64,000 bases of DNA from assembly GCA_002050165.1 (NCBI GenBank), contig MWSW01000004.1, positions 62,001 through 126,000 of the forward strand, in the 5' to 3' direction. A program made the position numbers and the translations under genes. Shown piece after piece: positions 10,461 through 36,885 of this stretch. This DNA is from Candidatus Tepidiaquacellales bacterium OLB4/UTCHB1. Lineage in GTDB: Bacteria; Bacteroidota; Ignavibacteria; Tepidaquicellales; Tepidaquicellaceae. Every line of letters starts with the position of its first letter. Position 1 is the stretch's first letter. The notes beneath the pieces were generated by a model that saw only the letters and a list, made by a program, of their open reading frames with translations, was not told the DNA's origin and searched no databases.

Positions 10461-10598
10461 TAACAGAACAACTGAAGTTTAACTGTATTCACTTAACCTG
10501 TGAGCTCTTTACTATCCGATTGTTCAATATATATAACTAAAAGCGATAATTTTTATTTTATCATTGAAAATTTTTATCTATTACAATCAGAAATATTT

Positions 10599-10612
10599 AT
10601 GATTAAAATCAT
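10599..10612. promoter_or_regulatory. Putative FNR/DNR-like palindrome upstream of the narK-like gene
   Basis: The sequence ATGATTAAAATCAT is a 5-bp inverted repeat with a 4-base spacer, of the CRP/FNR-family form TGAT-N4-ATCA. It lies 140 bases upstream of the narK-like start in a 291-base intergenic region. Near-identical sites occur upstream of the tryptophan/indoleacetate-type operon (14785-14798) and the nos operon (36281-36294). Such short motifs also occur by chance. Confidence 0.4.
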
Positions 10613-10751
10613 TCTACGGTAGTATAAAATGAACAACTTTTGCATTAAACAGTTACCGGAATGATTTGGCAAAAAATTATAGTTTTTCGTGAACAAATTT
10701 TCTGATGGCAAATTTCTGGTCCCGGTTTAAATATAAATCAAAATTCACACT

Positions 10752-12269: not shown

Positions 12270-12283
12270 TCCAACTATAAAAA

Positions 12284-13384
12284 ATGTCAGAAAATAATTC
12301 ATCCCAATCTGATAAACTAAGTTCGTTTTTTTTCTCTTCACGGGTATCCCTCAACCTTTTTGAGATGGTGAAAAATATGCCACCGTCTTATTTCGCTATT
12401 GTAATGGCAACGGGAATTGTTTCTATTGCATCACTATTCCTTAAGTTTCCAGTTATTCCAGAATTTTTATTTTGGTTGAATATCATTTTCTATGTTGCCG
12501 GATGTGTATTTGTAACGCTAAGAATATTATTTTACGGGAGAGATTTTCTGAACGATCTGTTTGATCACGCCACTGGTCCGGGTTTTTTTACCATCGTCGC
12601 CGCTACCTGTGTGCTTGGGACTCAATTCATTTTGCTCGATGATGATTATATAATCGCTGTTATTTTATGGATAATCGGAGTGATTTTATGGTTACTGATT
12701 ACGTTCACAATTTTTACAACTTTCACCATTAAGGAAAAAAAACCTTCACTCATTGACGGTATAAACGGTGGATGGCTTCTCGCAGTAGTCTCAACCCAAT
12801 CGCTTGCAGTACTTAGCTCTCGACTCTCAATGCACTTTGAAGAATACAGATTGGTAATGAATTTTTTTGCTTTTTCCATGTGGCTATGGGGCGGGATGCA
12901 GTATATCTGGATGATCTCACTGATATTCTATCGTTATACATTTTTCAAATTTTCCCCCGGGGATCTTTCTCCGCCTTATTGGATTAATATGGGTGCAATG
13001 GCTATTTCCACACTCGCCGGATCGCTTCTGATTATTAATACTCCTCACGCCCCCTTCCTGTTTTCAACGCTCGCATTCTTAAAAGGATTTACTATTTTCT
13101 ACTGGGCAACCGGAACGTGGTGGATTCCTATGCTCATTATTCTTGCGGTTTGGCGGCACATTTATAAAAAATTTCCGCTCAAATACGATCCGCTTTACTG
13201 GGGTGCTGTCTTCCCACTCGGTATGTACACAGCTTGTACTTACGAATTAGGATTGGCAATGCAACTAGAATTCCTGATGCCGATACCGGAGTATTTTATC
13301 TATTTAGCGTTACTTGCCTGGGGAGCTGCTTTCTTCGGGTTCATGCACAATTTGTTCAAAAATATTTTCAAAACACATTTATAA
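12284..13384 (+). CDS. TDT/SLAC1-family transporter (TehA-like)
   Basis: A 366-residue membrane protein with about ten hydrophobic segments. The start of the first helix, NMPPSYFAIVMATGIVSIAS, is the characteristic opening of the tellurite-resistance/dicarboxylate transporter (TDT) family, which includes TehA, Mae1 and plant SLAC1 anion channels. Substrates in the family range from sulfite to malate and chloride or nitrate, so the substrate here cannot be named. It sits 14 bases after the NarK-type gene and is probably cotranscribed, which makes an anion such as nitrate or nitrite an attractive but unproven guess. Confidence 0.75.
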   Translation: MSENNSSQSDKLSSFFFSSRVSLNLFEMVKNMPPSYFAIVMATGIVSIASLFLKFPVIPEFLFWLNIIFYVAGCVFVTLRILFYGRDFLNDLFDHATGPGFFTIVAATCVLGTQFILLDDDYIIAVILWIIGVILWLLITFTIFTTFTIKEKKPSLIDGINGGWLLAVVSTQSLAVLSSRLSMHFEEYRLVMNFFAFSMWLWGGMQYIWMISLIFYRYTFFKFSPGDLSPPYWINMGAMAISTLAGSLLIINTPHAPFLFSTLAFLKGFTIFYWATGTWWIPMLIILAVWRHIYKKFPLKYDPLYWGAVFPLGMYTACTYELGLAMQLEFLMPIPEYFIYLALLAWGAAFFGFMHNLFKNIFKTHL

Positions 13385-13662
13385 AAAATTTACTTCTGTA
13401 TTTACGGGCTTTGAATACCGTTATAGAAAGTTTTTTCAGGATAAAGTTCAGCAAAAGCTCCTTCTGTATTGAAGAGTTAAAAAACAATACAGTTGATTAG
13501 TTAGAGTTAGGTTGATTCTAAAGACTGATGATTTTTTATATCTAAAATTCTCTTAATAAAAATTTTTATCATTGGACAAAACAAATGTCATGCCTGCGAA
13601 GTAAAAGAACAAAAAACTTCATGAAATTTCATGAAAAAATTTCCAAATCAAAAACAACAACA

Positions 13663-14529
13663 ATGAAACATTTAATTGTTTTATCCGCTTTGTTTGTGTC
13701 TTTAATTTTCTCCGCATGTGAGTCAAAAAATTCTGACCGGGATTTTATTGCTGATGGTGAAAATTTATCAGGATACCAAAATCAACCCGGTACTTTAAAT
13801 GAACAAAATGTAACTGATAAAACTAGAAAGGAAACCCAAACCGACGGCAACGAAGTCTCTTCTGTTAACATCACTGAACGAAAACTCATCAAACAGGGAA
13901 CAATAAAGTTTGAGACAAAAGATCCCGGGGCTACAAAAGAAATCATTTCAGGAGCTGTTAAAGAGTTCAACGGTTACATTTCAAGCGATAATATTCAATC
14001 CAGCAAGTCAAACATAGTCCACAAGGTGCAAATCAGGGTTCCTGCAGAAAATTTTGATTTATTGTTAAACCGAATCACGGAAAGCGCCGATAAGCTCGAC
14101 AGTAAGAATATTAGAGTTCTGGACGTTACCGAAGAGTTTATTGATGTTGAAGCCCGGATAAAAACAAAAAAGGAACTTGAGGCCCGCTATAAAGAAATTT
14201 TGACCCAGGCAAAAACTGTCGCAGAAATTCTATCTATTGAAGAAGAAATTGGTAAGTTGAGAACAGAAATTGAATCCGCTGAGGGGCGATTAAAATATCT
14301 CAGAAATCAAATCGGATATGGAACTCTGATTGTTGAGTTTTATGAAACCCCTGGGACGTCGTTCGGCTTTTTTGACAAGTTGTTTAACGCTTTGGAAAAA
14401 GGATGGGAAGGATTTTTGACATTTATTATCGGACTCGTCTATATCTGGCCATTTATCCTGATCCTGATTGGAATAATTTTTATTCTTGTCAGATTTTTCA
14501 AAAAACGAAAGAAAAAAGTTAAAGCATAA
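13663..14529 (+). CDS. DUF4349-domain lipoprotein
   Basis: A lipoprotein of about 288 residues counted from the ATG at 13663; an upstream ATG at 13585 is possible, but the later start puts a lipobox (LIFSAC) where it belongs. The mature part matches DUF4349: the opening ERKLIKQGTIKFETKD, a central segment VHKVQIRVPAENFD, a coiled-coil region (about 180-225, rich in K and E with EEEIGKLRTEIESAEGRL), and a C-terminal membrane helix followed by a basic tail. The family is found in many envelopes and has no settled function. The protein would be held in the membrane at both ends. A terminator follows at 14591. Confidence 0.8.
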   Translation: MKHLIVLSALFVSLIFSACESKNSDRDFIADGENLSGYQNQPGTLNEQNVTDKTRKETQTDGNEVSSVNITERKLIKQGTIKFETKDPGATKEIISGAVKEFNGYISSDNIQSSKSNIVHKVQIRVPAENFDLLLNRITESADKLDSKNIRVLDVTEEFIDVEARIKTKKELEARYKEILTQAKTVAEILSIEEEIGKLRTEIESAEGRLKYLRNQIGYGTLIVEFYETPGTSFGFFDKLFNALEKGWEGFLTFIIGLVYIWPFILILIGIIFILVRFFKKRKKKVKA

Positions 14530-14590
14530 ACAAACATTCCTGAAGTAAGACTTTTGGAGAATTGTTAAGTTTTAAAGTTGACCTATAATC

Positions 14591-14620
14591 ACGGGAAGTC
14601 AATGGCTTCCCGTATTTTTT
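14591..14620 (+). terminator. Rho-independent terminator after the DUF4349 gene
   Basis: An 8-bp stem, ACGGGAAG at 14591-14598 paired with CTTCCCGT at 14606-14613, has a 7-base loop and is followed by A and a T run. It separates the DUF4349 gene from the large catabolic operon. The rest of 14530-14893 holds an FNR-like site and no gene that I can support. Confidence 0.88.
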
Positions 14621-14784
14621 TAATCCGCTGTTACTGATTTGAACGTGTAATCAAATATAACTTTTTCTCTGTGCAATAATATTGCATGCGTAAGAACTGT
14701 TACTTCTTTAATTGAATTTAAAATTCTCGAATGTCAATTCCTGTTTTATTTATTCCTCACACAACCTACAAGACAGGTTTTAAT

Positions 14785-14798
14785 ATGATTAAAGTCAT
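14785..14798. promoter_or_regulatory. Putative FNR/DNR-like palindrome upstream of the fifteen-gene operon
   Basis: ATGATTAAAGTCAT, of the form TGAT-N4-GTCA, lies 95 bases upstream of the first start codon of the operon. It differs by one base from the site at 10599-10612. If bound by an anaerobic CRP/FNR-family regulator, it would couple tryptophan/indoleacetate breakdown to anoxic respiration. Confidence 0.4.
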
Positions 14799-14893
14799 TT
14801 TATCACATAAATCAACGAAATAGATTTAATCTTGGTGCCGGATTAAACCTGCTTCAAATAATGAATGACTAAATACCTCAAAAAATATTTCCG

Positions 14894-16996
14894 GTGAATT
14901 TCAAAGTTGGAATAGACATTGGAGGAACCTTCACTGATATCATTGCCGTCTCGGAAAAAGGGAATGCCTTTGTTCACAAAATTTTATCTACTTCTCATGA
15001 TCCTTCAATTGGATTTGTTGACGGACTTTATAAAATTTCGGATACGGTGGGAATAGATTTTGATAAATTCATAAAGAGCATTGACACAATAGTACACGGC
15101 ACAACAGTAGCAACGAACGCGCTCCTCACCTTACAAGGCGCTAAGACAGCATTGATTACTACAAGAGGTTTTCGCGATGCGCTTGAGATGAGAAGGGGAA
15201 TCCGAGAAGAACAATATAATAATCATTATCGAAATGTGATTCCGCTTGTACCGAGATATCTGAGGTTTACTGTTGATGAGCGAATAGATTCGGAAGGTAA
15301 TATTCTCTCAAAACCTGATAAAAAACAATTGTTGCCAATTATTAAAAAAATCGAGGCGGAAAAAGTAGAGGCAATTGCAATTTGTTTTATGAACTCATAT
15401 AAAAATTCTATTAACGAAAAAATCGCGGTGGAATATCTCCGGAGTCAATTACCACGGATATTTACCATAGCATCGTTTGAAGTCTTACCATCCATTCGGT
15501 TCTATGAACGGGTTAGCACAACCGTCGTAAGCGCATTTGTCGGACCTATCGTTTCAAATTATTTAGATAATCTGAACAGTAAACTTCGTGATTTAAAATA
15601 TAATGGCTCACTTTTGATAATGCAATCGAACGGTGGCGTGGTAACACCGGAAATAGTAAAACACAATCCCGCAGTTACAGTATTATCCGGACCGGCAGCT
15701 GCTCCTACCGCAGGTGTATATTACGCAAATTTTCTCGGATACAATAACTGCATTACAGTTGATATGGGCGGAACAAGTTTTGACGCATCGCTTGTAACAG
15801 GTAATAATTGCGCTACAAGTTCGGAGGGAATAATTAACCGTTACCGGATCGCGCTTCCTTCTCTTGATATTATAACAATCGGAGCCGGTGGTGGGAGCAT
15901 CGGCTGGATCAATGATGGCGGATTACTTCAGGTTGGTCCGCAAAGTGCAGGCTCAAATCCGGGACCGGTTTGTTATCAAAAAAACGGAAATGAACCGACC
16001 TGTACCGATTCCGATTTAATTCTAGGTTATCTCAATAAAGATTTCTTTGCCGGTGGAAAACTTAAACTCAGTTACAGCCTCGCGGAAAAATCAATTGAAA
16101 ACAAACTTGCATCCAAACTCGGACTATCTGTAATTGAAACCGCAGCCGGAATGTATAGAATAATTAATAGCAATATGGCGCAAGGTGTCAGACAGATATC
16201 CGTAGAACGAGGTTATGATCCGAGGGAGTTTTTGTTTATTGTAGCCGGTGGTGCTGGTTCTATACATGCGGGAGAAATTTGCAAAGAACTTGAAATCCCT
16301 CTGTTCATCGTTCCAAACGTTGCATCTATCTTCTGTGCCGCCGGAATGCTCCTCGGTAATCTTAAACACGACTATATAAGATCATATTTTACTTCATTTG
16401 AACAAATTGATAAAATCAAGTTCCAAAGCCTGTTCAAAGAAATGAAGAAAGAGGGTTTCGAATCGCTTACTGTCCACGAAGGGGTTCATGAGAGTAAAGT
16501 ATCTTTTCAACCCGAACTAGATATGAGGTATATAGGTCAATATCATGAAGTGCAACTCAAAGTATCAATGGATGATATTGATAATTTCAATCTTGAAAAT
16601 ATTTTCAATGCATTCCATAAAGAACACAACAGACAGTTTGGTTATTCATTGCAGGATGAAAAAACACCGATGGAACTGATAAATCTCCGTTTGAGAGTAA
16701 TCGGTGAAACCGTAAAACCAAAATTCTCCTTTCGTTCAGAAAAAACAGTAATGCTTGAAGATGCGATAAAAGGATATAGATCAATTTATATCCCCGAAGA
16801 AAAGAAAATGAAAAAAGTTCCGATTTACGATGGTGATAAACCTTTGACCGGATCTACAATAAAAGGACCGTGTGTAATTGAAAAAATTACAACGTCGGTT
16901 TTCTTAAGCAATTTATATAATTGTCTTGTTGATCAGTTCGGATCGTTTATTGTTTATAATAAATCTTCCTTTCCAAACGGTTATTTACTAAAATGA
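14894..16996 (+). CDS. Hydantoinase/oxoprolinase family, A subunit (candidate 2-oxindole-acetyl-CoA ring-opening enzyme)
   Basis: A 700-residue HyuA-type subunit. It starts at a GTG (14894) directly before the conserved NFKVGIDIGGTFTD. Further family motifs are VHGTTVATNALL (about residue 75), a central VDMGGTSFDASLV (about 292) and GAGGGSIGW (about 335), all parts of the ASKHA-type ATP-binding fold. Family enzymes use ATP to phosphorylate and hydrolyse lactam or cyclic amide bonds (5-oxoprolinase, hydantoinase) or to carboxylate ketones. Its neighbours are a Mo-hydroxylase, a B12 mutase and CoA enzymes, so the most likely substrate is the lactam of 2-oxindole-3-acetyl-CoA, as proposed for the iaa pathway in Aromatoleum/Azoarcus. 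It is the first gene of the operon and overlaps the B subunit by four bases (ATGA). Alternatives: hydantoin or acetone/acetophenone carboxylase-type chemistry, which fits the neighbours less well. Confidence 0.88.
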   Translation: MNFKVGIDIGGTFTDIIAVSEKGNAFVHKILSTSHDPSIGFVDGLYKISDTVGIDFDKFIKSIDTIVHGTTVATNALLTLQGAKTALITTRGFRDALEMRRGIREEQYNNHYRNVIPLVPRYLRFTVDERIDSEGNILSKPDKKQLLPIIKKIEAEKVEAIAICFMNSYKNSINEKIAVEYLRSQLPRIFTIASFEVLPSIRFYERVSTTVVSAFVGPIVSNYLDNLNSKLRDLKYNGSLLIMQSNGGVVTPEIVKHNPAVTVLSGPAAAPTAGVYYANFLGYNNCITVDMGGTSFDASLVTGNNCATSSEGIINRYRIALPSLDIITIGAGGGSIGWINDGGLLQVGPQSAGSNPGPVCYQKNGNEPTCTDSDLILGYLNKDFFAGGKLKLSYSLAEKSIENKLASKLGLSVIETAAGMYRIINSNMAQGVRQISVERGYDPREFLFIVAGGAGSIHAGEICKELEIPLFIVPNVASIFCAAGMLLGNLKHDYIRSYFTSFEQIDKIKFQSLFKEMKKEGFESLTVHEGVHESKVSFQPELDMRYIGQYHEVQLKVSMDDIDNFNLENIFNAFHKEHNRQFGYSLQDEKTPMELINLRLRVIGETVKPKFSFRSEKTVMLEDAIKGYRSIYIPEEKKMKKVPIYDGDKPLTGSTIKGPCVIEKITTSVFLSNLYNCLVDQFGSFIVYNKSSFPNGYLLK

Positions 16997-18690
16997 AACC
17001 CGGTCATATAGATAAAATACTGATAAGCATTTTTCAACGAACGTTCAGATCCATCACGGATGAAATGAGCATTTCACTCACGAAAACCACCCGGTCACCA
17101 ATACTGTGCGAAGCAAAAGATTTCGTTACCGGGTTATATGATTCCGAAGGTCAGATGCTCGAACAAACTGAGAACCTGCCGATATTATCTTTTTCTCTCG
17201 GTCCGGTGTGTAAGGTCATCATCGATCAGTACTGTAATGATATCCATGAAGGTGATGTGATAATTCACAATGATGTTTTCACAATGGGAAATCAAAACAA
17301 TGACGTTGCAATCTTTAAGCCGATTTTCCATAACAATCAACTCATCGGCTGGTCAGCAGCAAAAGGACATCAGGCCGACATAGGTGGCGCTGTTCAGGGT
17401 GGATACAATCCCAATGCTACCGAAGTCTGGCAGGAAGCAATCAGAATCCCGGCAGTAAAGCTTTATGAACGGGGAATACTCAGAAAAGATGTATGGAACC
17501 TTATCTTTGCAAATATACGTCTCCAAATGGTTCAGGAAGATATAAAAGCGCAAATTGGTGCATGTACTCTTGGCGAAAGGAGATTGAAAGCACTGGTCGA
17601 AAGGTACGGAATAGAAGTTTTCAATACACACAAAAATGCGTTGTTTGATTCTACTGAAAAAATGATGCGTGCCGAAATCAGAAATATTCCCAACGGTGTG
17701 TATGAAGGTAAAAGTACGGTTTATTATGACGGAAAAAATATAGGCAGCAAGTTTCAAATCAAAGCCAAAATTTCCGTTAAAGGTGAAAATATAAAATTTG
17801 ACTTTTCCGGTTCTGCCAGACAAACTAAAGGGTTTGTAAACGGAACTTATACTTCTTCATGCTCCGCGATTACGCTTACGTTTTTGCAAATTGTAAATCC
17901 TGATATCCCGCATAATGAAGGAATGATAAGACCATTGGAATATATAGTTCCGGAGGGGACAATTTTAAATGCATCTTTTCCCGCCGCAACTACGTTCGGT
18001 AACCATCTGTGTCCACAGATTGCAGATTCAATCTTTAAAGCTTTGGGAAATGCAATACCGGAAAAAGTAACTGCCGGCTGGAATCATCTGCTTTGTTCAC
18101 TTTTTACCGGAACACATCAACGTACCGGAAGAAAATACGTTGACATATGTTTTCTCGGGATGAAAGGTGGAAGCGGCGCAATTATGGGAAATGACGGATA
18201 TGACCATATCGGTATGATAGACGCATCAGGTGGTGTATTGGATCAGGACTATGAAATGTTCGAACAACAGACGCCTCATTTATTGCTGCAACACGAATAC
18301 CTCTGTGATTCAGGGGGAGCAGGCGAATGGCGTGGCGGACTTGGTACCGTAACAGAAATTCTGCTTAGAGGAAATGATACTACTATGGTAGTTTTCGGTG
18401 ACGGAGATGTTGAACCTACTTACGGACTTTTTGGCGGAAAAGGTAGCGTGCTGAATAAAATCGAACTCCGGTTTCCACAAAAGCATAAAGGAAGGAAATA
18501 CCTGATACCCCTGAGCAAAGATATTGTCAGCGATATTCCTGATGGTACGGTTTATTATCAAATTGCTGGTGGTGGCGGTGGTTACGGTAACCCGAAGAAA
18601 AGAAACCGAAAGAAGGTTATGCAAGATGTTCAAAATGGCGTTGTATCTGAAAATTGCGCAAAAAAAGTTTACGGATTAAAAAGTTATTAA
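16993..18690 (+). CDS. Hydantoinase/oxoprolinase family, B subunit
   Basis: A 565-residue HyuB-type subunit, partner of the preceding gene. Conserved stretches include the opening with SITDEMSISLTKTTRSP, HNDVFTMGNQNNDVAIFKP (about 95-115), GHQADIGGAVQGG (about 125-137) and the C-terminal GGGGGYGNP typical of the family. The A and B subunits together form the ATP-dependent amide-bond enzyme; B is needed for substrate binding and transfer. The length is normal for the family (about 520-590). In the inferred pathway the A/B complex opens the oxidised pyrrole ring to give (2-aminophenyl)succinyl-CoA. The Rid-family gene follows after 12 bases. Confidence 0.88.
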   Translation: MKPGHIDKILISIFQRTFRSITDEMSISLTKTTRSPILCEAKDFVTGLYDSEGQMLEQTENLPILSFSLGPVCKVIIDQYCNDIHEGDVIIHNDVFTMGNQNNDVAIFKPIFHNNQLIGWSAAKGHQADIGGAVQGGYNPNATEVWQEAIRIPAVKLYERGILRKDVWNLIFANIRLQMVQEDIKAQIGACTLGERRLKALVERYGIEVFNTHKNALFDSTEKMMRAEIRNIPNGVYEGKSTVYYDGKNIGSKFQIKAKISVKGENIKFDFSGSARQTKGFVNGTYTSSCSAITLTFLQIVNPDIPHNEGMIRPLEYIVPEGTILNASFPAATTFGNHLCPQIADSIFKALGNAIPEKVTAGWNHLLCSLFTGTHQRTGRKYVDICFLGMKGGSGAIMGNDGYDHIGMIDASGGVLDQDYEMFEQQTPHLLLQHEYLCDSGGAGEWRGGLGTVTEILLRGNDTTMVVFGDGDVEPTYGLFGGKGSVLNKIELRFPQKHKGRKYLIPLSKDIVSDIPDGTVYYQIAGGGGGYGNPKKRNRKKVMQDVQNGVVSENCAKKVYGLKSY

Positions 18691-18702
18691 CCGGATTTTG
18701 CA

Positions 18703-19104
18703 ATGGAACATAAAATTATTTTACCCGAAGGATGGCAAAAGTCGAAAGGATACAGCAATGGTATCATTGCAACTAATGGGAGAACACTGTTTCTCGCCGG
18801 TCAGGTTGGTTGGAACGAGAAGGAAATTTTTGAAAGCGATAAATTGGTCCCTCAGTTTGAGCAAGCATTGAAAAATATCATTGCTATTGTAGAAGCTGCC
18901 GGTGGAAAACCTGAACATATCTGCAGAATGACCTGCTTTTGTAAAGACAAAGAGCAGTATCTTAAAGCCCGGAAGGATATTGGTACAATATGGAAATCAA
19001 TAATGGGAAATCATTACCCGTGTATGAGCATGATATTTGTATCTGATCTGCTCGACCATCCGGCAGTGATTGAAATTGAAGCCACCGCAGTAATTCCGGA
19101 ATGA
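18703..19104 (+). CDS. Rid (YjgF/RidA) family protein lacking the usual catalytic arginine
   Basis: A 133-residue Rid-family protein, normally a trimer that hydrolyses reactive enamines/imines. The family fold is evident from FLAGQVGWN, ALKNIIAIVEAAGG and the terminal VIEIEATAVIP. The residue corresponding to the key arginine of the PARS motif in RidA is Met108 (HYPCMS), so classical 2-aminoacrylate deaminase activity is unlikely. Two cysteines (78, 80) and Cys107 are unusual. It lies inside the operon, one base before the acyl-CoA dehydrogenase start, so it may bind or hydrolyse an aromatic intermediate such as a ring-opened amino compound. No definite role can be given. Confidence 0.8.
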   Translation: MEHKIILPEGWQKSKGYSNGIIATNGRTLFLAGQVGWNEKEIFESDKLVPQFEQALKNIIAIVEAAGGKPEHICRMTCFCKDKEQYLKARKDIGTIWKSIMGNHYPCMSMIFVSDLLDHPAVIEIEATAVIPE

Positions 19105-19105
19105 G

Positions 19106-20233
19106 ATGTACGAACTAAATGAAATACAGCAGCAGGTTCAACAAATGTTTAAAGAATTTTCCGATAAACATATTGCACCAGTTGCATCAAAGATTGATAC
19201 CGAAAATAAATTTCCTTTGGAATTGTTCAGGCGGATTGGAGATATGGGCTTTTTCGGAATGAGATATCCGGAAATTGTTGGAGGAAGTGGTTCAGATGTA
19301 ATTTCATATTCGCTTGCCGTGACAGAGCTTGCTCGTGGATCGCTTTCTCTGGCAGCAGTATGTACAATGCAATCGCTAATGGGAACTCATTTTCTCTATC
19401 GTTTCGGGGATAAATCAATCTTTGAAAATTATTTCTTGCCAGCACTTAAAGGGGAGTTGATCGGCGCAATTTGTATGACTGAACCAAATTCTGGAAGTGA
19501 TTTAATGTCAATGACAACAACCGCAAAAATAACTGAAAACGGTTTTACGCTGACTGGACAAAAAACATGGGTTACTTCAGCTCCGGTTGCAGATTTCTTT
19601 ACAGTGTTCGCAAAAACTGACAACAGTGGCCAACTATCAATATTTTTTGTACCTCGAAATACTGAGGGAGTTATCATCGGAAAAAATATTGAAAAGCTCG
19701 GTGTCCGTGGATCACTTACAAGCGAAGTGAGTTTTCAAGAGGTGCAATTGCCGAAAAATTATCTCCTCGGAAACCCGGGAGAAGGAACAAAATGTTTGCG
19801 TGAAATTCTGGCTGAGATAAGAATAATGACCGCAGCGCTTGCTATAGGCGTGGCGACGGCGGCGTTCAATGAAGCTGTTGAATATGCAAAGACAAGAGTT
19901 CAGTTCGGAAAACCAATAGGGAAATTTCAGTCAATCCAAACAAAATTTGCTGAGATGTCAGTTCAACTTGAAACCGCGAAACTTTATATGATAAATGCAG
20001 CGCGATTAAGCGACCTCGATTTACCGAGGCAAAAGGAATCAATGATAGCTAAATTATACGCATCTGAATGTGCCGTCAGGATCTGTGATGAAGCAAGTAG
20101 AGTTCTTGCATCGTACGGTTACGCTACGGAATATAATTTAGAGAGATATTTGCGCGATTCCCGGTTCACGCTGATTGGTGGCGGAACTTCTGAAATTCTT
20201 AAAATCAATATTGCTAAAGAACTCGGACTATAA
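19106..20233 (+). CDS. Acyl-CoA dehydrogenase homologue without catalytic glutamate (candidate decarboxylating (2-aminobenzyl)malonyl-CoA dehydrogenase)
   Basis: A 375-residue flavoprotein of the acyl-CoA dehydrogenase family, of full length. FAD-binding motifs are visible: MTEPNSGSD (about 124-132), WVTSAP (155-160), FGKPIGKFQ (267-275). The catalytic base is missing at both places where the family carries it. The residue of the medium-chain type is Gly359 (IGGGTSE instead of YEGT), and the residue before the conserved Arg239, Glu in isovaleryl- and long-chain-type enzymes, is Ile238. This fits the benzylmalonyl-CoA dehydrogenase IaaF of Aromatoleum, for which loss of the 2-carboxyl group is thought to replace proton abstraction. 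The product here would be 2-aminocinnamoyl-CoA plus CO2. The B12-binding mutase subunit follows. Glu237 is adjacent to the second site and could in principle substitute. Confidence 0.85.
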   Translation: MYELNEIQQQVQQMFKEFSDKHIAPVASKIDTENKFPLELFRRIGDMGFFGMRYPEIVGGSGSDVISYSLAVTELARGSLSLAAVCTMQSLMGTHFLYRFGDKSIFENYFLPALKGELIGAICMTEPNSGSDLMSMTTTAKITENGFTLTGQKTWVTSAPVADFFTVFAKTDNSGQLSIFFVPRNTEGVIIGKNIEKLGVRGSLTSEVSFQEVQLPKNYLLGNPGEGTKCLREILAEIRIMTAALAIGVATAAFNEAVEYAKTRVQFGKPIGKFQSIQTKFAEMSVQLETAKLYMINAARLSDLDLPRQKESMIAKLYASECAVRICDEASRVLASYGYATEYNLERYLRDSRFTLIGGGTSEILKINIAKELGL

Positions 20234-20261: not shown

Positions 20262-20633
20262 ATGAAAGTACTCTTGGCAAAACCAGGATTAGACGGTCAC
20301 GATGTAGGCGTTAAAGTTTTAGCCCACGCATTGAAAAATTCCGGTGTTGATGTTGTATATACCGGTTTGCGAAAATCTATTGAAAATATTGTGCAACAGG
20401 CAGTTGATGAAAACGCGGATTTGATCGGACTCTCCATTTTATCGGGAACGCACCGGATATTATGTGAGAGGATAAGTCATGTAATGACTGAACGAAACTT
20501 AAATATCCAATGGATTGTCGGTGGCAATATACCAACTGAAGATGTTGAATCGCTTGAAAAACTCGGTGCACTGAAAGCGTTTCCTACCGGAACAAATATT
20601 GAAACCGTAATAAGGTTTATACAATCCTTGTAA
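20262..20633 (+). CDS. B12-binding (small) subunit of an acyl-CoA mutase
   Basis: A 123-residue cobalamin-binding domain protein. The start is the ATG at 20262, since an upstream in-frame ATG lies inside the acyl-CoA dehydrogenase gene. All B12 motifs are present: DGHDVG (the DxHxxG that supplies the lower-ligand histidine), LSILSGTH (SxL region) and IVGGNIP (GG). Such stand-alone domains pair with a separate catalytic barrel in two-polypeptide mutases (isobutyryl-CoA, ethylmalonyl-CoA and archaeal methylmalonyl-CoA types). The partner barrel is encoded at 24079. Together they would interconvert (2-aminophenyl)succinyl-CoA and (2-aminobenzyl)malonyl-CoA. Confidence 0.92.
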   Translation: MKVLLAKPGLDGHDVGVKVLAHALKNSGVDVVYTGLRKSIENIVQQAVDENADLIGLSILSGTHRILCERISHVMTERNLNIQWIVGGNIPTEDVESLEKLGALKAFPTGTNIETVIRFIQSL

Positions 20634-20666: not shown

Positions 20667-21863
20667 ATGGCAAAGACACAATTAATTTTCCCGGAAGCAA
20701 GAATTCCATACGGTACGTGGGGATGCAGTTATTTCCCTGCCTGGCAAACTTCACCCCTTGCGGAGGTTAACATCGGTCAGTTTGCGGGAGAATCCATGGC
20801 GAAAATTCTATCACTAAGAAATACTCCGATTAATCAGCTCGACTATCTGATAATCGGTTCAACAGTGCCCTGGCATTGGAAATTCTGGAATGCTACCGTT
20901 GTTGCAAGTTGCATGGGTAAACGTGTTCCCGGATTTCAGATGGAACAGGCATGCGCAACCGGACTGCAGGCAGTCATCCTCGCAGCAGCACAGGTACAAT
21001 CCGGTTCTAGTAACACTGTCGGTGTTTTAACCTTTGATCGTACGAGCGACTCGCCGGTAGGTGTCTTTCCCGAACGGCGGTCTTATAGACGTACAGAGGT
21101 TATCAGCGATGTCTGGGATAATTTCGGATTCGATCCTGCAACAGGAAACGCAATGATTACAACTGCCGGTGTTGTAGCGAGGAAATATGGTATTACCAAA
21201 GGTGAAGTTGATGAATTGGCAGCGTTCCGGTATGATCAGTATTTCACAGGAAAACAATCAGGATTTCTCGAAAAGGTTGCTGTACCACTAGAGATTCTGA
21301 ATGTGCAGGGGAAATCAATCGGAATGATAGATGAAGATACCGGAGTTAAAAAGTTTTCACTCTCTGCGCTGAGATCAATGCGTGAACTTGATACTTGTGT
21401 AACAAGCGGAACGCAAACTCACGCAGCAGACGGCATGGCAACGCTATTAGTTTCATCAAAAAGCGCGGCAAAACAAATCAGCAGGAAACCGGAAATAAAT
21501 ATTTCGTTCGTAGCCAAAGCTGAGGTGAGGGTCAGCTTATCCTGTATGCCTGAAGCACCTGCAATGGCAGTTAAGAAAATTCTCTCTAAAACCGGGATTT
21601 CAATGAAGGATTTTGTAGTCGTAAAAGATCACAATCCGTTTGCTGTCAACGATGCCGTGTTTTCGAAAGTTCTGGGTTACGATTGGAAGAAAATGAACAA
21701 CAACGGATGTCCTCTCGTCTTCGGACATCCGCAGGGACCAACATTAACCAGAGTAATAATTGAAGGTCTTGAAGAAGCTGTCGATCTTGGTGGCGGGTAT
21801 GTGCTTGTTTTTGGCTGCGCTGCAGGTGACGTTGGCATTGCATCAATCTTCCTCGTTAATTAA
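20667..21863 (+). CDS. Thiolase family acetyl-CoA acyltransferase (candidate 2-aminobenzoylacetyl-CoA thiolase)
   Basis: A 398-residue thiolase. The nucleophile Cys96 sits in QACATGLQA, the active-site His in FGHPQGPTLTR (about residue 351) and the second Cys in VFGCAAGDVG (about residue 387). The last motif departs from the usual CxGGGxG. The substrate loop is atypical for acetoacetyl-CoA thiolases, with several tryptophans and tyrosines near residues 18-25 and 69-74 (WGCSYFPAW, WHWKFW). In the inferred pathway it cleaves 2-aminobenzoylacetyl-CoA with CoA to 2-aminobenzoyl-CoA and acetyl-CoA. It lies between the B12 subunit and the dehydrogenase/hydratase fusion in the operon. Confidence 0.88.
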   Translation: MAKTQLIFPEARIPYGTWGCSYFPAWQTSPLAEVNIGQFAGESMAKILSLRNTPINQLDYLIIGSTVPWHWKFWNATVVASCMGKRVPGFQMEQACATGLQAVILAAAQVQSGSSNTVGVLTFDRTSDSPVGVFPERRSYRRTEVISDVWDNFGFDPATGNAMITTAGVVARKYGITKGEVDELAAFRYDQYFTGKQSGFLEKVAVPLEILNVQGKSIGMIDEDTGVKKFSLSALRSMRELDTCVTSGTQTHAADGMATLLVSSKSAAKQISRKPEINISFVAKAEVRVSLSCMPEAPAMAVKKILSKTGISMKDFVVVKDHNPFAVNDAVFSKVLGYDWKKMNNNGCPLVFGHPQGPTLTRVIIEGLEEAVDLGGGYVLVFGCAAGDVGIASIFLVN

Positions 21864-21894: not shown

Positions 21895-24018
21895 ATGTTA
21901 GTTTTGAAAAGTAAAACCTCAAATATAGATATGGTCAAATCAATGAGGCAGTCCACTCTGGAAACAATCGGACTGGGTAAAGTAATTGATGTTTTCAGAA
22001 ACGGTAAATTACCTGTGAATACAAAAGAGCTTGTGGAAAAAGTTTTCGGTCCTGAAGACAACAGAGGCGCAATGGTAATCTCTGGTTCTAATGGAATTGT
22101 AGGGGCAGGAAAAGTGATGCAATTCGCATCAAGGCTTTTACCATTTAATATCCCGATAATTGCGCTGGATCTGCCGGGTTCGTCTGATGGGATCAGCAGG
22201 CAATATGCAGGACTCATAAGAGCATTCGGAAAAAACGGTGCAAATGGAATAATGAAAAATGTAATCAGAATCAGCTATGACGGGAAATCAATACCGGAAG
22301 CTGTACACCGCTATAATCCGAAACTGCTTTTGGAAGCGATTCCTGAAATACTCGACTTGAAGAAAAATCATTACAGGTTGTTCAAGGAAACATTTCCGGG
22401 AATCCACATCTGGTCAGTAACTTCAGGGTTTCCGTCGTCACAGTTAGGTGTAAGTATTGCACATCCGGCATTTCCTCATGAGATAAATAAACTTTTCGAG
22501 ATAGTTGAAGACCAGCCGTCAGTTTATACTCAGCTACTTTGGTCGCTTGGATTAATCCCGGTTACCGTAAAAGACAATTGGTCTTTCGTGCTTGATGTTT
22601 TCTTTTGTGGATTGATGTTAGCTTCTCTCCGGTATCACAACAAATCAAATATGCCTTTTTGGAAAATTGATAAATATATCCGTCAAATAGTTGGTCCGAA
22701 TCCATTCAGAGCACATGATGCAATCGGCGCTAAAGGTGCAAATTTTCTCACTTGGTCATGTCTTCATCACCTGAACAAACGGTACGGCGAATTGTTCAAA
22801 CCGACTACTGATTTGGTCGAACGAAAAGATAGCGGACAGAACTGGTATCCGCCGGATCATTTCAGACCAATTGTTAACTGGAGATTGAATGAAGAAGAGA
22901 AAAAAGAGCTGCAGGCAATAATCTTCGGCGCATTGTTTCAGATGACCTCGATTATGCTGAAAGAGAAAAGATCTGATCTTCCATCAATGAATGCAATTGG
23001 AGAATTATGCGCTCAGTTTACTAAGGGATTGTTAGCCGTAATTAGGAACACCGGCGGAAAAGATGTAATCAAAACCATTAAGACTTTTCAAAAACTTTAT
23101 CCGGAATCTTTGAACACCAAATGGTATCCAGGTGAATTTAAAAATATGAAAGCGCCTGAATGGCAACAATTATATGTTAACGCTGAACACGATGGTTCTG
23201 CCGGCATTATTACCATTAGTAGAGAAAGCTATAATAGTGATGTTGACGCTGAGTTAAATAAAGCTATTGATTGGTTAAAGAAAAGTAAAATTGACCGTGT
23301 AATCTTATCTGGCGACTTTCACCTTTCAACACAAATGGTCGGTGCGGACACAAGTGAATTTTTTCCTGCAATAACAAATAAAGAAGACGGTGTTAAAATT
23401 GCGACAAGCTGGTCAATGACTGCACGCAGGCTATATAATGAATTTGAAATTTCTGTCGGATTTGTAAATGGCAAACGTTGTATGGGAGGAATGCTTGAAC
23501 TAATGATGCACTGCCACTATCTCATAGCAACGGAAGAAACAATCTTTGCTATGCCTGAAGTCACATTACCTGTTGTACCGGGTATGGAAGGTTGTCATTG
23601 GGCATTAAGAAAAGTAAAATCTTCTGACAGAAAACACCTCATTAAAATGTTACTTGAGGGGAATCAGGTGCCGGCAAAGGATTCCAAAGGTTGGTTGGTT
23701 GATTATGCCGGTACACTTGATTCATCATTGAAAATTGCCTGGAAAATTATGCAGAACGGATACTCGGTGTTACCGTTGAGAAAAGTAAATGAAAAACCGA
23801 TTGGAAAAATTGAAATAAATCCGGTTGAAAATTTTTCAACGTCTGATGAATCTATTAGCGCAACGAGAAGGGCGATATCTGATTGCATTAAGGAATCAAC
23901 AAACGTAAAATTATCAGAGGCTATATTTGTTCAGGCAAATCATTCCGCTGAATTTATGATAAGTAAATTATGTCGCAAAGGTAGAGTTGGTAGTGAGTAT
24001 GACAAAATTATGCAATGA
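21895..24018 (+). CDS. Fused 3-hydroxyacyl-CoA dehydrogenase / enoyl-CoA hydratase
   Basis: A 707-residue bifunctional beta-oxidation enzyme. The N-terminal half looks like a 3-hydroxyacyl-CoA dehydrogenase: a Rossmann-like SGSNGIVGAGKV at about 63-74, then a helical dimerisation region with VGPNPFRAHDAIGAKG (about 265-280). The C-terminal part (about 435-620) is a crotonase fold. It keeps both catalytic glutamates, E535 in MGGMLEL and E555 in MPEVTLP. The order, dehydrogenase first, is the reverse of the classical FadB multifunctional enzyme. The 14-gene iaa cluster of denitrifiers also contains a hydratase/dehydrogenase fusion. Proposed reactions: hydration of 2-aminocinnamoyl-CoA and oxidation of the 3-hydroxy product. 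The dehydrogenase half is divergent, so its activity is less sure than that of the hydratase half. Confidence 0.82.
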   Translation: MLVLKSKTSNIDMVKSMRQSTLETIGLGKVIDVFRNGKLPVNTKELVEKVFGPEDNRGAMVISGSNGIVGAGKVMQFASRLLPFNIPIIALDLPGSSDGISRQYAGLIRAFGKNGANGIMKNVIRISYDGKSIPEAVHRYNPKLLLEAIPEILDLKKNHYRLFKETFPGIHIWSVTSGFPSSQLGVSIAHPAFPHEINKLFEIVEDQPSVYTQLLWSLGLIPVTVKDNWSFVLDVFFCGLMLASLRYHNKSNMPFWKIDKYIRQIVGPNPFRAHDAIGAKGANFLTWSCLHHLNKRYGELFKPTTDLVERKDSGQNWYPPDHFRPIVNWRLNEEEKKELQAIIFGALFQMTSIMLKEKRSDLPSMNAIGELCAQFTKGLLAVIRNTGGKDVIKTIKTFQKLYPESLNTKWYPGEFKNMKAPEWQQLYVNAEHDGSAGIITISRESYNSDVDAELNKAIDWLKKSKIDRVILSGDFHLSTQMVGADTSEFFPAITNKEDGVKIATSWSMTARRLYNEFEISVGFVNGKRCMGGMLELMMHCHYLIATEETIFAMPEVTLPVVPGMEGCHWALRKVKSSDRKHLIKMLLEGNQVPAKDSKGWLVDYAGTLDSSLKIAWKIMQNGYSVLPLRKVNEKPIGKIEINPVENFSTSDESISATRRAISDCIKESTNVKLSEAIFVQANHSAEFMISKLCRKGRVGSEYDKIMQ

Positions 24019-24078: not shown

Positions 24079-25698
24079 ATGGATAATTTAAAAAATGAAA
24101 ACCCTGAAAGCATTGGTAATGTAATTCTTGAATCCGGGTTTGAAGTTAAATCCGTTTACCGGAGAGAAGATGTATTAATCGGGTATCCTGAAATTGATGA
24201 GGAAGAACCGGGTAAATATCCATTCACAAGGGGAATACACCCATTAATGTACCGTAAACAACCGTTCACTATCAGGCAATACGCGGGTTTTGCTTCTCCG
24301 GAAGAAACCAATAAGCGGTTTAAATTCCTTATCAGAAACGGACAAAACGGATTGAATGTAGCATTTGATTTGCCAACACAATGCGGGCTTGACTCGGATG
24401 ATCCACGTTCACTTGGCGAAGTAGGCAGAGTCGGTATGTCAGTTGATACGCTTGAAGATTTTGAGATTGCATTCAACGGGATTGACCTCGATAAAATTAC
24501 CGTATCGTTAACAATCAACGGTGCAGCGCTTGTAATTATGGCAATGTATTTCGCTATGGCAGAAAAGCGAGGCTATGACCTGTCAAAACTCAGGGGGACT
24601 TCTCAAAATGATATACTGAAGGAATTTATCGGAAGGGGCACATGGATTTTCCCCGTTGATAGTTCGGTTAAACTTGTCGTTGATACGATTGAATACTGCG
24701 CACGGAATATCCCAAAATACTCACCGGTAAGCGTTTGCGGTTATCATATACGAGAAAGCGGAGCAAATCCAGTTCAGGAAATGGCATACGCATTCTGTAT
24801 TGCTAAAGCATATTCAGATGAAACTATAAAACGCGGACTTGGTATTGATGAATTCGCTTCACGGTTATCGTACAACTTTGATATTTACGGAAATTTTTTT
24901 GAGCAGATTGCAAAGTTCCGGGGTGGGAGAAGGTTGTGGGCAAAAATTATGAGAGAGCAATACGGCGCTCTGAATGACCGCTCTTGCTGGATGAGAATGA
25001 TAGCCGGTGGCGGCGGAGCAGGGCTTACTAAAGAACAACCGGAAAATAATATCGTTCGGACAGCATACTATGCACTTATCTCTGCGCTCTCCGGAACACA
25101 AACTATGGCGCTCTGTACTTATGACGAAGCTTTTACTATTCCCACTGAAAAGGCTGCTGAAATTGCGCTCAGGACTATGCAAATCCTTACTCATGAAATG
25201 GGAATTTGTGATACGGTCGATCCGCTTGGCGGTTCATACTATATCGAAACGCTCACAAACCGTTTTGAAAATGAAATTCAAAAGGAAATGAAAAAGGTTG
25301 ACGGATGGGGCGGAATAGTAAATGCCATTGCAACGGGTAAAATACAAGAGGCAATTTCACAGCAAGCCTATATAAAAGAAACCGCAATTCAAAACGGCAA
25401 AATTAAAAAAGTCGGTGTGAATTGTTTTAAAAAAACAGAAGAGAAACGAACGGTAGAATTTCATCCGTATAATAACGATGCGGCAAATAAACAGATAAAC
25501 AAACTTCGTAGTTTAAAATCCAAACGCGATCAGGCACCTGTTAACGCAACGTTGGAGAGGTTAAGGCAGGATGCAAAGAACAATGAAAACCTGATGCCGG
25601 CTGCAATTGAAGCTGTAAAAGCGTATGCAAGTGTAGGGGAAATTATAGAGGTTTTAAAGGATGTATATGGTGAGTATCAGGAACCAATTTTCTTTTAA
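24079..25698 (+). CDS. Catalytic (large) subunit of B12-dependent acyl-CoA mutase
   Basis: A 539-residue methylmalonyl-CoA-mutase-type TIM barrel without its own B12 domain, as in two-polypeptide mutases; the B12 domain is encoded at 20262. Conserved stretches are FTIRQYAGF, VAFDLPTQCGLDSDDPR, GTSQNDILKEF and CGYHIRESG. Tyr68, Arg186 and His223 align with Tyr89, Arg207 and His244 of methylmalonyl-CoA mutase. Arg207 binds the free carboxylate and is replaced in isobutyryl-CoA mutases; its presence here indicates a substrate with a free carboxylate (succinyl/malonyl type). This fits rearrangement of (2-aminophenyl)succinyl-CoA to (2-aminobenzyl)malonyl-CoA. No MeaB-type chaperone is encoded nearby. 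Ordinary methylmalonyl-CoA mutase remains an alternative, but the operon partners argue against it. Confidence 0.88.
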   Translation: MDNLKNENPESIGNVILESGFEVKSVYRREDVLIGYPEIDEEEPGKYPFTRGIHPLMYRKQPFTIRQYAGFASPEETNKRFKFLIRNGQNGLNVAFDLPTQCGLDSDDPRSLGEVGRVGMSVDTLEDFEIAFNGIDLDKITVSLTINGAALVIMAMYFAMAEKRGYDLSKLRGTSQNDILKEFIGRGTWIFPVDSSVKLVVDTIEYCARNIPKYSPVSVCGYHIRESGANPVQEMAYAFCIAKAYSDETIKRGLGIDEFASRLSYNFDIYGNFFEQIAKFRGGRRLWAKIMREQYGALNDRSCWMRMIAGGGGAGLTKEQPENNIVRTAYYALISALSGTQTMALCTYDEAFTIPTEKAAEIALRTMQILTHEMGICDTVDPLGGSYYIETLTNRFENEIQKEMKKVDGWGGIVNAIATGKIQEAISQQAYIKETAIQNGKIKKVGVNCFKKTEEKRTVEFHPYNNDAANKQINKLRSLKSKRDQAPVNATLERLRQDAKNNENLMPAAIEAVKAYASVGEIIEVLKDVYGEYQEPIFF

Positions 25699-25797: not shown

Positions 25798-27012
25798 ATG
25801 CTGGGGAGAAAAACAATCCTGTCTCTGGAACAAGCGTTGGCATTACCGTACGCAACTCAAAGATTTGTACAACTTGGATGGCGGGTAATCCGTATTGAAA
25901 TTCCCGGAAATGAAAATGATAACGCAGGAGACCCGAACAGATATATCGGAGCTGAAACCGGGTATCACGATTTACATTCATATTATATCGCGCCGAACAT
26001 AGGTAAAGAAGCAATTACAATTAATCTGAAAAGCACCGAAGGGAAGATTCTGTTACAGCGTTTGATTCGGGGGTTAAAAGTTGATGTATTTATGTGCAAT
26101 ACATTACCCGTTAGGTATAATCAACTTGGAATTGATTTTGAAACCTTGTCTAAGGTCAATCCATCGTTAATCTGGTGCGGTATTTCAGCATTTGGTAAAG
26201 ATGAACCGGATAAACCGGGTTACGATCCTGCGCTGCAGGCATTGTGCGGATTTACTTACCTTACGGGCGAGCCTGACCGAAACCCTGTTCCCTGCGGAGT
26301 TCCCGTGATTGACCTGAAAGCCGGCGATGAAGCATTTATACAGGTTATATTGGCAATGCTCGAACTGGAACACCGAGACAATGAGTTTAAAAACGGAAAG
26401 GAGATAAACATCTCAATGGTGCAATGCGCTGCGAGTTGGCTAATAACCGCTCTTCCCCAGTTGAATTTTGTTTCTGATGAAAGCGAACTTTTCCAACGAA
26501 GCGGTAATGAACACAGGAGTTTTATACCCTGTAATATTTATCCGACCAAAGATGGATTCGTTTATCTGGCAATCGGAAACGATTCCCAATGGGCAAGGTT
26601 CGCATCTTATCCTGGATTTGAATCTTTTTCAACTGATAAAAGAAAAACTAATGCAGGAAGAATGGAAGAAAAGAATTTAATTTATTCCGAGATCGGTAAC
26701 TTGACACAGGGTTATTTAACAAATGAATTTATTGAAATTTGTAATGCGCTTGGTTTATCCGCTTCCCCAGTTAATTCTATAAAGGATGTAGCAGAAATAA
26801 ATCACATAAGAAAAAATTTTATTAAAACAATATTACCCGACAGTAAACCTGTATCGCTTTTTCCACCGTCGCACAATACAGATTTTCTGGTAAATGAAAA
26901 TTTCAATCTGAAATTATCCCCGCGACTGGGTGAACACAATTTTAATATTCTTCAAGAAATAGGATTGAACTCTGATGAAATTGAACAATTGAAAGCTAAT
27001 CGTGTCATTTGA
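25798..27012 (+). CDS. Family III CoA-transferase (CaiB/BaiF type)
   Basis: A 404-residue family III CoA-transferase. The conserved aspartate that forms the acyl anhydride intermediate is Asp172 in GVPVIDLKAG. Other family features are GYDPALQALCGF before it and a C-terminal RLGEHN. The N-terminus begins LSLEQALALPYATQ, as in family members with a full-length fold. In the Aromatoleum iaa pathway a transferase of this family (IaaL) acts on phenylsuccinyl-type CoA esters, positioning CoA on the carboxyl group that the mutase needs. The same role is inferred here. The 99 bases before it (25699-25797) form one of the longest gaps in the operon; an internal promoter is possible but not evident. 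Confidence 0.87.
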   Translation: MLGRKTILSLEQALALPYATQRFVQLGWRVIRIEIPGNENDNAGDPNRYIGAETGYHDLHSYYIAPNIGKEAITINLKSTEGKILLQRLIRGLKVDVFMCNTLPVRYNQLGIDFETLSKVNPSLIWCGISAFGKDEPDKPGYDPALQALCGFTYLTGEPDRNPVPCGVPVIDLKAGDEAFIQVILAMLELEHRDNEFKNGKEINISMVQCAASWLITALPQLNFVSDESELFQRSGNEHRSFIPCNIYPTKDGFVYLAIGNDSQWARFASYPGFESFSTDKRKTNAGRMEEKNLIYSEIGNLTQGYLTNEFIEICNALGLSASPVNSIKDVAEINHIRKNFIKTILPDSKPVSLFPPSHNTDFLVNENFNLKLSPRLGEHNFNILQEIGLNSDEIEQLKANRVI

Positions 27013-27048: not shown

Positions 27049-30000
27049 ATGCTGAAAGAAACAATTGACATACTAACCAGTTATCCAATTTCCCAAAAGC
27101 GGTGTATAATGGGAAATATAGCAATTGCGCGGGGCGCTATAGAAGCTGGTGTTAACGGTGTTTTCTCATATCCAGGTACTCCCTCAACTGAAATTTCTGA
27201 AGTGTTTAACTACGTTGACTCTTTCCTCTCTAACCCTGATTACCGTCAGATATATCCGGTTCAGGCAAATACAAAAATTTATTTTGAATATAGTATTAAT
27301 GAGAAGATTGCGCTGGAAAAAGCGATTGCTTATTCTATAGGGAACAGGAGTTCGATGTGCGTTATGAAAAACGTGGGTATGAATGTCGCAAGCGATGCAT
27401 TGATGAGCATAACATATCAGACAATATCGGCGCCACTTGTTATTGTTGTCTGTGATGATCCCGGATGTCACTCCAGCTCAAATGAACAGGATTCAAGATA
27501 CTGGGGTGCAATGGCAAATGTTCCACTCTTAAATCCATCAAACCCAAACGAGGCGAAGGAGTTCACTGTTCTTGCCTTCAGGTTATCCGGCAAATTAAAG
27601 TTACCAGTTATTATCAGAACCACAACCCGCGTTTCACATTCCAGGGGGATAGTTAATTTCGGAGTAATAAATGCTGATGATCGTATTGCAGGGTTTGAAA
27701 GGATACCTGAACATATTAACATTCCCGCCCGCACTGCTGCGGCACATTCCAGATTATTGGAAAAACTAAATGATCCTGAAATATCCGCCATGCAAAGGGA
27801 AAGTTGTAAAATAATTTCAGGAAATGAAAATACCCGGTATGGAATTATCACAAGTGGCGTAGCATCCGAATACGTTTGTGAAGTATTACATGATAATAAA
27901 ATCAATGAACAGGTATATGTTTTAAATATAGGTTTAGTTAATCCATTTCCCGAGAAGGTGGTAGCAGACTTTCTGAAAAATAATTTACAAAAAATTCTTA
28001 TTGTGGAGGAACTTGAACCCATTACAGAAAATGCGATTAGAGTTATTGCTCAGAAAGAATGCATTAATACGGAAATTTTGGGTAAAGGTTTTTCCGGATT
28101 AACCGTTGCCGGTGAGTTTAACATTGATCTTATAAAACAAACTTTGTTTGAGTTTTTAGATCTACAAATTGGTAAAGTTCAAAAACAACCTCTTGAAAAT
28201 GTGAAAGAATTTACCGAACTCTTACCGCCAAGACCACCGGTGCTTTGCGCAGGTTGCCCTCACCGCTCAACTTTTTACCTGTTGAAACTTGTAATTCCGC
28301 GAGAGGAAAGCGAGTTGATACTATGCGGCGATATAGGGTGTTTCGGGCTGGGGGCGCTACCACCTCTTAAAATGATAGATACAATCAATCACATGGGGAT
28401 GAGTATTTCAATGGCGCAGGGCTTGAGCGAAGCTTTGACGCGGTATGAGAATTCAAAAATTATAGATGTTGATCAGGATAATAACCAACATTGCAATAGT
28501 CCAAAACCATTAAAAACTGTTGCACTTGTCGGTGATGGAACTTTTTTCCACTCCGGACTTGCGTCATTGGTTAACGCAGTTTATACCCGTGCAAATATTC
28601 TGGTTGTAATTTTCGATAACCGGACAATCGCAATGACCGGAAGACAGTCACATCCGGGTGCGTCACAAAATCTACCAAAGTATAATCAGATTGAAATTGC
28701 CCCGTTGCTGAGAGGTTTAGGTATTGAAGTTGTTGAGGAATTCGATCCGTTTAATCTGCGTGATGGGTTTGCAAAGTTAAATAAAGCTATGCAACACCGG
28801 GGAATCTCTGTTGTCATTGCCAAAGCGCCATGTGTTTTCCTTCCCGAATTTATAGATTTGCATCCTGTAAAAAAGAAAATAATTGTCGAAGAATCATTGT
28901 GTAATACTTGTGCAAATCACGATGATGAAGCCATTGTCTGTTCGAGATGCTACTCTTCCAGAAGTAATCTTTCACGGGCACGGGCAAAGTTATTCGCAGA
29001 AGTTTCCATTCCCGGAGAGTTACAGTTGTGTCCGGCAAATATTTGTAACCATGGTTTTTTTAATTCAATCCTCGAGGGAGATTATAAGTCCGCAGTAGAG
29101 ATTGTGCGGGATAAAATGTTATTCTCAAAAACCTGCGGAGATATTTGTCATAGATCATGTGAGCTAATGAAAATTGAAACAGACGAAAAGTGGAATGAAG
29201 AAATTTCTTACATCTCAACCGGTAATGTTCCAATTAAAGCATTAAAAAAATTCGTTTCATCGTTTGACAATAACTATCTTGACTTTTCCGCACCAATCTC
29301 AAGGGCAAAGAATGCTGAAAAGAAAAATAAAAAAATTGCAGTCATAGGCGCCGGACCTTCGGGATTGAGCGCTGCGTATGATCTCGTTCAAAACGGATAT
29401 GAAGTGGAAATTTTTGAGAAGCAAAATAAACCCGGCGGTATGGTTGCTTTTGGAATTCCATGGTTCAGAATGGATAAATCAGGCTTTGAATATGAGGCAA
29501 TGCAACTAGAAAAAATGGGGGTTCAATTTCATTTCAATTCCGTTTTGGGAACTGATTACAGTTTAACCGAACTTTCAGAGAGTTTCGATGCAATTATACT
29601 CGCAATCGGTATGTGGCACTCAAAGAAACTTGATTTAATTGAGATGTCTGTACCGGAATCAAAACGTTCAGATGCTCTGACATTTCTTAAAAAGTTTAAC
29701 AGCGGTATTTCTGAAATTACTGCAGAAATAACCTTCGTCGTTATCGGCGGTGGAAACAGCGCACTCGATACAGCAAGGGCGGCAAGAATACTCAACCCTA
29801 AAAACAGGGTTATAATAACCTGTATTGAAAAAGAAAATGACATGCCAGCTTTTGCTGAAGAAATTTCAAATGCGAAAGCTGAGGGAATTGAAATTATTCC
29901 GGATAGTTACGTTTCGAATTGTAGTTGTGAAGATAGAATAAATATTGTTCTGAATTCCTTCTCAAATAAAGAATTTCTATGTGAACTGAAATGCGATTTT

Positions 30001-36441: not shown

Positions 36442-36885
36442 ATGAAAAACACAAAAAAGAGAGCTATTAAAATCCTTTCAATCAACTTAGCTCTGGGAGT
36501 AATTATTGCGATTACATCCTTCATATATTCAGGGTGTAGTGAAGAGGTTGCATCTGATACAGGAATTGGACCAATTAAAAAGATTGAAATTCCGGCAACC
36601 ATTGATCAGAACTTAGTAAATAAGGGAAAAGAAATATTTGAGGCAAAATGTACCGCTTGCCACAAATTCGATGAGAAATTTACCGGACCCCCGTTATCAG
36701 GTGTAACAAAGAAAAGGAAACCTGAATGGATAATGAACATGATGCTGAACCCGGTAGAAATGACACAAAAAGACCCTGAAGCCAAAAGGCTTTATCAGGA
36801 ATATTTATTGCAAATGACCTTCCAGGATGTAACGGAAGATGATGCAAGGGCAATTTTAGAATACTTCCGTTCTAAAGATCAATAA
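36442..36885 (+). CDS. nosC: c-type cytochrome lipoprotein of the nos operon
   Basis: A 147-residue membrane-anchored monohaem cytochrome c. An N-terminal hydrophobic stretch ends in a lipobox (FIYSGC, Cys about 33). The haem motif is CTACH near residue 70, and the Met of LLQMTF near residue 128 is a likely axial ligand. Clade II nos operons usually carry one or more such small cytochromes, which deliver electrons to NosZ. It is the first gene of the operon, with nosZ starting 14 bases after its stop. The symbol follows usage for clade II operons. Confidence 0.85.
   Translation: MKNTKKRAIKILSINLALGVIIAITSFIYSGCSEEVASDTGIGPIKKIEIPATIDQNLVNKGKEIFEAKCTACHKFDEKFTGPPLSGVTKKRKPEWIMNMMLNPVEMTQKDPEAKRLYQEYLLQMTFQDVTEDDARAILEYFRSKDQ

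Follow-up and report, generated by a model that had tools for sequence, protein, structure and literature searches.

How does a protein built as an acyl-CoA dehydrogenase function when the catalytic glutamate is missing from both positions known for this family, and which reaction could tolerate its loss? The question arises from a gene that we analysed within a stretch of 64,000 nucleotides (the window) of Candidatus Tepidiaquacellales bacterium OLB4/UTCHB1. An earlier note on this DNA had read the gene as the benzylmalonyl-CoA dehydrogenase of the iaa pathway, arguing that decarboxylation of the substrate would make a base dispensable. The gene and its two decisive motifs are:

19106–20233, + strand: iaaF, FAD-dependent protein of the acyl-CoA dehydrogenase family with a GGG active-site motif; predicted decarboxylating (2-aminobenzyl)malonyl-CoA dehydrogenase
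19814–19822, + strand: Glu-Ile-Arg, codons 237–239; Ile238 stands where isovaleryl-CoA dehydrogenase has its catalytic Glu, and Glu237 is present in 79/80 IaaF
20177–20185, + strand: GGG motif, codons 358–360; the middle residue, Gly359, takes the place that the catalytic Glu has in YEG enzymes, in 80/80 clade members

Two catalytic-base positions without glutamate

The open reading frame is intact from its ATG to the stop codon and encodes 375 amino acids with all three acyl-CoA dehydrogenase domains (PF02771, PF02770 and PF00441). An AlphaFold2 model computed from 42 input sequences reached a mean pLDDT of 91.4 and a pTM of 0.92, and its top match in the PDB is the short-chain enzyme SCAD (1jqi, TM 0.94). 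The confident model and its best match argue that the active site has not been shifted by a change of fold. The C-terminal motif reads FTLIGGGTSEI, with the numbering I357-G358-G359-G360-T361. In a phmmer alignment, which contains no gap between about residues 175 and 371 and thus spans the C-terminal half, IGGGTSEI lies opposite IYEGTSEI of rat SCAD, and this pairing places Gly359 at the position of the catalytic Glu. The two proteins therefore share fold and domain architecture, but SCAD carries YEG with its catalytic Glu, and the window protein carries GGG.

The alternative base of isovaleryl-type enzymes sits directly before a conserved Arg on the long helix of the C-terminal domain. In human isovaleryl-CoA dehydrogenase (1ivh), where the sequence LDLERLVL starts at residue 251, the base Glu254 precedes Arg255, and this pair aligns with I238-R239 of the window protein without gaps around the site. 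The distance from the Arg to the end of the FGxxIG motif, 33 residues, is the same in both proteins. Isovaleryl-CoA dehydrogenase also has no Glu at the YEG position, where it reads GAG (PMC8360864), but it retains Glu254 as the base where the window protein has Ile238. Both residue assignments of the earlier note, Gly359 at the YEG-type position and Ile238 before Arg239 at the isovaleryl-type position, were thus borne out by alignment to structurally known acyl-CoA dehydrogenases, and the base Glu is missing at either site. The protein is accordingly neither a canonical acyl-CoA dehydrogenase of the SCAD/MCAD/GCDH type nor an isovaleryl-CoA dehydrogenase.

A scan of genome contigs returned 80 related loci at about 51–75% identity, apart from a few canonical enzymes that reach about 37% at most. 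The alignment was supplemented with members from a Rhodocyclales-type family search, and the GGG set was defined as the 80 proteins that share GG at 358–359. All 80 have I238, R239, R53, Y54, R332, R353 and the IGGGT motif. In the canonical comparators, which include three further acyl-CoA dehydrogenases from the source genome, position 359 is Glu and position 237 is G, Q or M. Because Gly359 and Ile238 are invariant among the relatives with the motif while the canonical enzymes hold Glu at 359, the absence of the catalytic Glu is confirmed as real and not due to chance.

In a phylogenetic tree whose outgroup comprises only 8 rows, a thin sampling compared with the full published tree, all GGG proteins form one clade of 80 (SH-aLRT 100). 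This clade includes the IaaF of a genome that we take to be Aromatoleum aromaticum EbN1, with which the gene content of its cluster agrees. The window protein falls into a mainly Bacteroidota branch and EbN1 IaaF into a proteobacterial one; they are 54% identical and share both IGGGT and Glu-Ile-Arg. Within the phylum, iaaF is patchily distributed, as we found no further IaaF in the 58 nearest relatives of the source genome and a single one in 395 other genomes. Plasmid records gave only matches at the level of canonical enzymes, the best at about 39% identity among the matches listed. One gammaproteobacterial contig bears two inverted iaaF copies about 9 kb apart (1127–2242 and 10001–11116) with identical percent identity to the window protein, which may reflect either a true duplication or an error of assembly.

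An iaa gene cluster with a possible indolepyruvate entry

Homologues of iaaC, E, H, G and L, of the molybdenum hydroxylase and of the thiolase occupy positions 14894–34916, with an aminotransferase gene directly downstream. Around iaaF, the genes are:

14894–16996, + strand: iaaC-like, HyuA-type subunit of an ATP-dependent hydantoinase/carboxylase-type pair; 49% identical to the EbN1 neighbour gene
16993–18690, + strand: iaaE-like, HyuB-type subunit; 63% identical to EbN1
18703–19104, + strand: Rid-family protein, directly upstream of iaaF
20262–20633, + strand: iaaH-like B12-binding mutase subunit; 41% identical to EbN1
20667–21863, + strand: thiolase; 36% identical to the thiolase of the EbN1 cluster
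21895–24018, + strand: 707-residue protein with a C-terminal enoyl-CoA hydratase domain
24079–25698, + strand: iaaG-like large subunit of an acyl-CoA mutase; 64% identical to EbN1
25798–27012, + strand: iaaL-like family III CoA-transferase; 46% identical to EbN1
27049–30564, + strand: IorA (indolepyruvate:ferredoxin oxidoreductase alpha) fused to a GltD-like FAD/NAD(P) and 4Fe-4S part
30561–31157, + strand: IorB, beta subunit with a POR domain
31169–34916, + strand: three-gene molybdenum hydroxylase (FeS 31169–31705, Mo 31702–34023, FAD 34020–34916), matching the three-gene set of EbN1
34895–35908, + strand: class I/II aminotransferase, HisC-like

The corresponding EbN1 stretch, whose genes we named by position and from the published operon description, encodes a thiolase, a CoA ligase (IaaB), the hydantoinase-like pair IaaC/IaaE, IaaF and both mutase subunits, along with a molybdenum hydroxylase of three genes, a CoA-transferase and a binding protein. 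Identities between the two clusters range from 32 to 64% across the thiolase, iaaC, E, H, G, L and the molybdenum hydroxylase. With these homologues around iaaF and the protein in one clade with EbN1 IaaF, the assignment to the iaa pathway made in the earlier note stands. The two loci nevertheless differ: gene order is not the same, the window places a thiolase and the hydratase-domain protein between iaaH and iaaG, it has a Rid gene before iaaF, and its IaaF belongs to the Bacteroidota subclade. The arrangement is not peculiar to this genome, as nearly all GGG relatives are surrounded by iaa genes for a hydantoinase-like pair, a mutase, a CoA-transferase and a molybdenum hydroxylase, and the block hyuA-hyuB-iaaF-mutase recurs in loci from Bacteroidota, Marinimicrobia, Calditrichota, Planctomycetota and Proteobacteria.

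The clearest difference concerns the entry into the pathway. We found no homologue of the indoleacetate-CoA ligase IaaB in the window, whereas the EbN1 cluster has one; conversely, the window encodes the IorA fusion together with IorB. Combined with the aminotransferase downstream, this suggests that the pathway would be entered via indolepyruvate, derived from tryptophan, rather than via indoleacetate, with the aminotransferase as a possible source of indolepyruvate. IorA is also found, at 56–59% identity, in six other Bacteroidota loci (L007, L011, L012, L013, L017 and L020).

Further variation is seen among the Bacteroidota-type clusters. The Rid-family gene beside iaaF is conserved at 71–79% in many of them and was not found beside proteobacterial iaaF. 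Two different sets of beta-oxidation genes occur between iaaF and iaaG: a thiolase with the 707-residue hydratase-domain protein, which likely carries out one or more beta-oxidation steps (the window, L010, L011 and L017), or two other thiolase/ketosynthase-like reading frames of about 390–460 residues, as judged by eye (L012, L016, L020 and L022). In the window, a nitrous oxide reductase region (36442–42589, with a nos propeller protein, a NosD-like protein and ABC transporter genes) adjoins the iaa cluster, hinting at N2O respiration.

A proposed decarboxylation in place of a base, and a possible role of Glu237

What would such an enzyme do? IaaF has been purified from Aromatoleum by Schühle et al. 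2021 (PMC8360864). It converts benzylmalonyl-CoA, an analogue of the pathway substrate, to cinnamoyl-CoA and CO2, coupling oxidation to decarboxylation, and it neither turns over nor forms phenylpropionyl-CoA (PMC8360864). The same study describes GGG in place of YEG as the hallmark of this subclass, found in all IaaF proteins, and proposes that the 2-carboxylate is lost directly and no proton has to be abstracted, the small Gly residues leaving room for the carboxylate (PMC8360864); the point was repeated in 2024 (PMC11659651). The link between GGG and CO2 loss is thus prior knowledge for IaaF and not new, and the window protein is an ordinary new member of the published IaaF type in a Bacteroidota-type genome.

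Gly359 and Ile238 at the two base positions, the placement in the IaaF clade and the shared iaa gene neighbourhood together lead us to read the gene as an iaaF orthologue. We put the probability at roughly 93% that it encodes the decarboxylating (2-aminobenzyl)malonyl-CoA dehydrogenase of the anaerobic indoleacetate pathway and that the predicted enzyme would be base-free by virtue of CO2 loss. By analogy with the Aromatoleum enzyme, the window protein itself would be expected to decarboxylate benzylmalonyl-CoA oxidatively. In the proposed concerted mechanism, the C2–C3 bond of the malonyl-type substrate would be positioned over the FAD, and Gly-Gly-Gly would form an open pocket for the alpha-carboxylate where Tyr-Glu of YEG normally sits. 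Departure of CO2 from C2 would then provide the electron pair otherwise made by a base taking the C2 proton, and a hydride would pass from C3 to the FAD, giving 2-aminocinnamoyl-CoA. This base-free route remains a proposal. Glutaryl-CoA dehydrogenase is likewise an oxidising and decarboxylating member of the family, but it retains YEG, and its gamma-carboxylate leaves only after C2 has been deprotonated (PMC8360864).

Decarboxylation cannot be deduced from a missing Glu alone: the residue is also absent from the subclasses of 3-sulfinopropionyl-CoA desulfinase (AGG), butyrobetainyl-CoA dehydrogenase (SGG) and pimelyl-CoA dehydrogenase (YGG) (PMC8360864). It is the full GGG motif, the clade and the synteny that identify IaaF. 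The earlier note's view that the missing base fits a decarboxylating IaaF is supported by clade, motif, neighbourhood and the published Aromatoleum data. Could the window protein be one of these other Glu-less types, its loss unrelated to the decarboxylation of a malonyl-CoA? It does match the desulfinase model NF042439 of NCBIfam, but with 246.4 bits against a cut-off of 600, and together with GGG in place of the published AGG this rules out membership of the desulfinases. Since the tree places the protein with IaaF and its gene neighbours are those of an iaa cluster, we hold any Glu-less type of this sort to be very improbable. That the gene is a decayed acyl-CoA dehydrogenase which merely lost its catalytic residue is hardly credible at all: the absence of Glu at both positions is the only point in its favour, against an intact reading frame, an IGGGT motif kept in 80/80 proteins across several phyla and a conserved operon context around iaaF.

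The rival reading closest to the active site concerns Glu237, one residue before the isovaleryl position, which could act as a relocated acid or base, taking the C2 proton or dealing with the carboxylate; the enzyme would then not be base-free. Its occurrence in 79/80 clade members, compared with G, Q or M in canonical enzymes, is what lends this idea some appeal. However, the Aromatoleum orthologue with the same Glu-Ile-Arg neither uses nor forms phenylpropionyl-CoA (PMC8360864), which argues that this Glu is no ordinary base there. In addition, position 237 would be rotated by about 100 degrees from position 238 on helix 226–263 of the model, assuming ideal helix geometry, and the sole exception, the Planctomycetota protein L038, reads Glu-Lys-Ile-Arg, with Lys237 and the acid at Glu236. 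We therefore consider a relocated base distinctly unlikely. A less demanding role, in which Glu237 as a third conserved acid would contribute to the reaction, for instance by guiding the alpha-carboxylate or the movement of protons via the neighbouring Arg239, has a somewhat better, if still slim, chance of being correct. Regardless of its role, Glu237 is a near-invariant feature of the clade and an addition to the published description of IaaF: a term search of the IaaF paper (PMC8360864) found no mention of Glu237 or Glu238.

Electron acceptor and downstream metabolism

The preferred reading of the gene as iaaF also raises the question of where its electrons would go. The Aromatoleum enzyme used only O2 as acceptor and not ETF (PMC8360864). 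No ETF was found in the iaa clusters of Bacteroidota and Proteobacteria when the source genome's ETF proteins served as tblastn queries, no ETF or acceptor gene was apparent by eye among the open reading frame starts listed for six Bacteroidota-type clusters, and no electron-acceptor gene was recognised in the window cluster. ETF alpha is encoded by one gene elsewhere in the source genome and is present in 18/18 other iaa-bearing genomes tested.

The source genome (2.4 Mb, 19 contigs, 99% complete) also encodes subunits B, C and D of a class I benzoyl-CoA reductase together with Had and Oah, the enzymes that come after it, all above the curated NCBIfam cut-offs, while the A subunit scores below its own. 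A plausible outlet for the aminobenzoyl-CoA product thus exists in the same genome. The reductase genes lie on contig C8 (L134 at 10346–19259 and L135 at 6–3445) with a CoA ligase and extra dehydratase-like subunits. Our search found no paper on benzoyl-CoA reductase in Kapabacteria.

The data presented here extend the published IaaF signature, from sequence alone, across several phyla. The genes of the wider cluster suggest a route in some Bacteroidota-type bacteria by which indolepyruvate made from tryptophan may enter the indoleacetate pathway and proceed to benzoyl-CoA reductase. The finding is of moderate relevance, and for anaerobic aromatic degradation rather than for enzyme mechanism.
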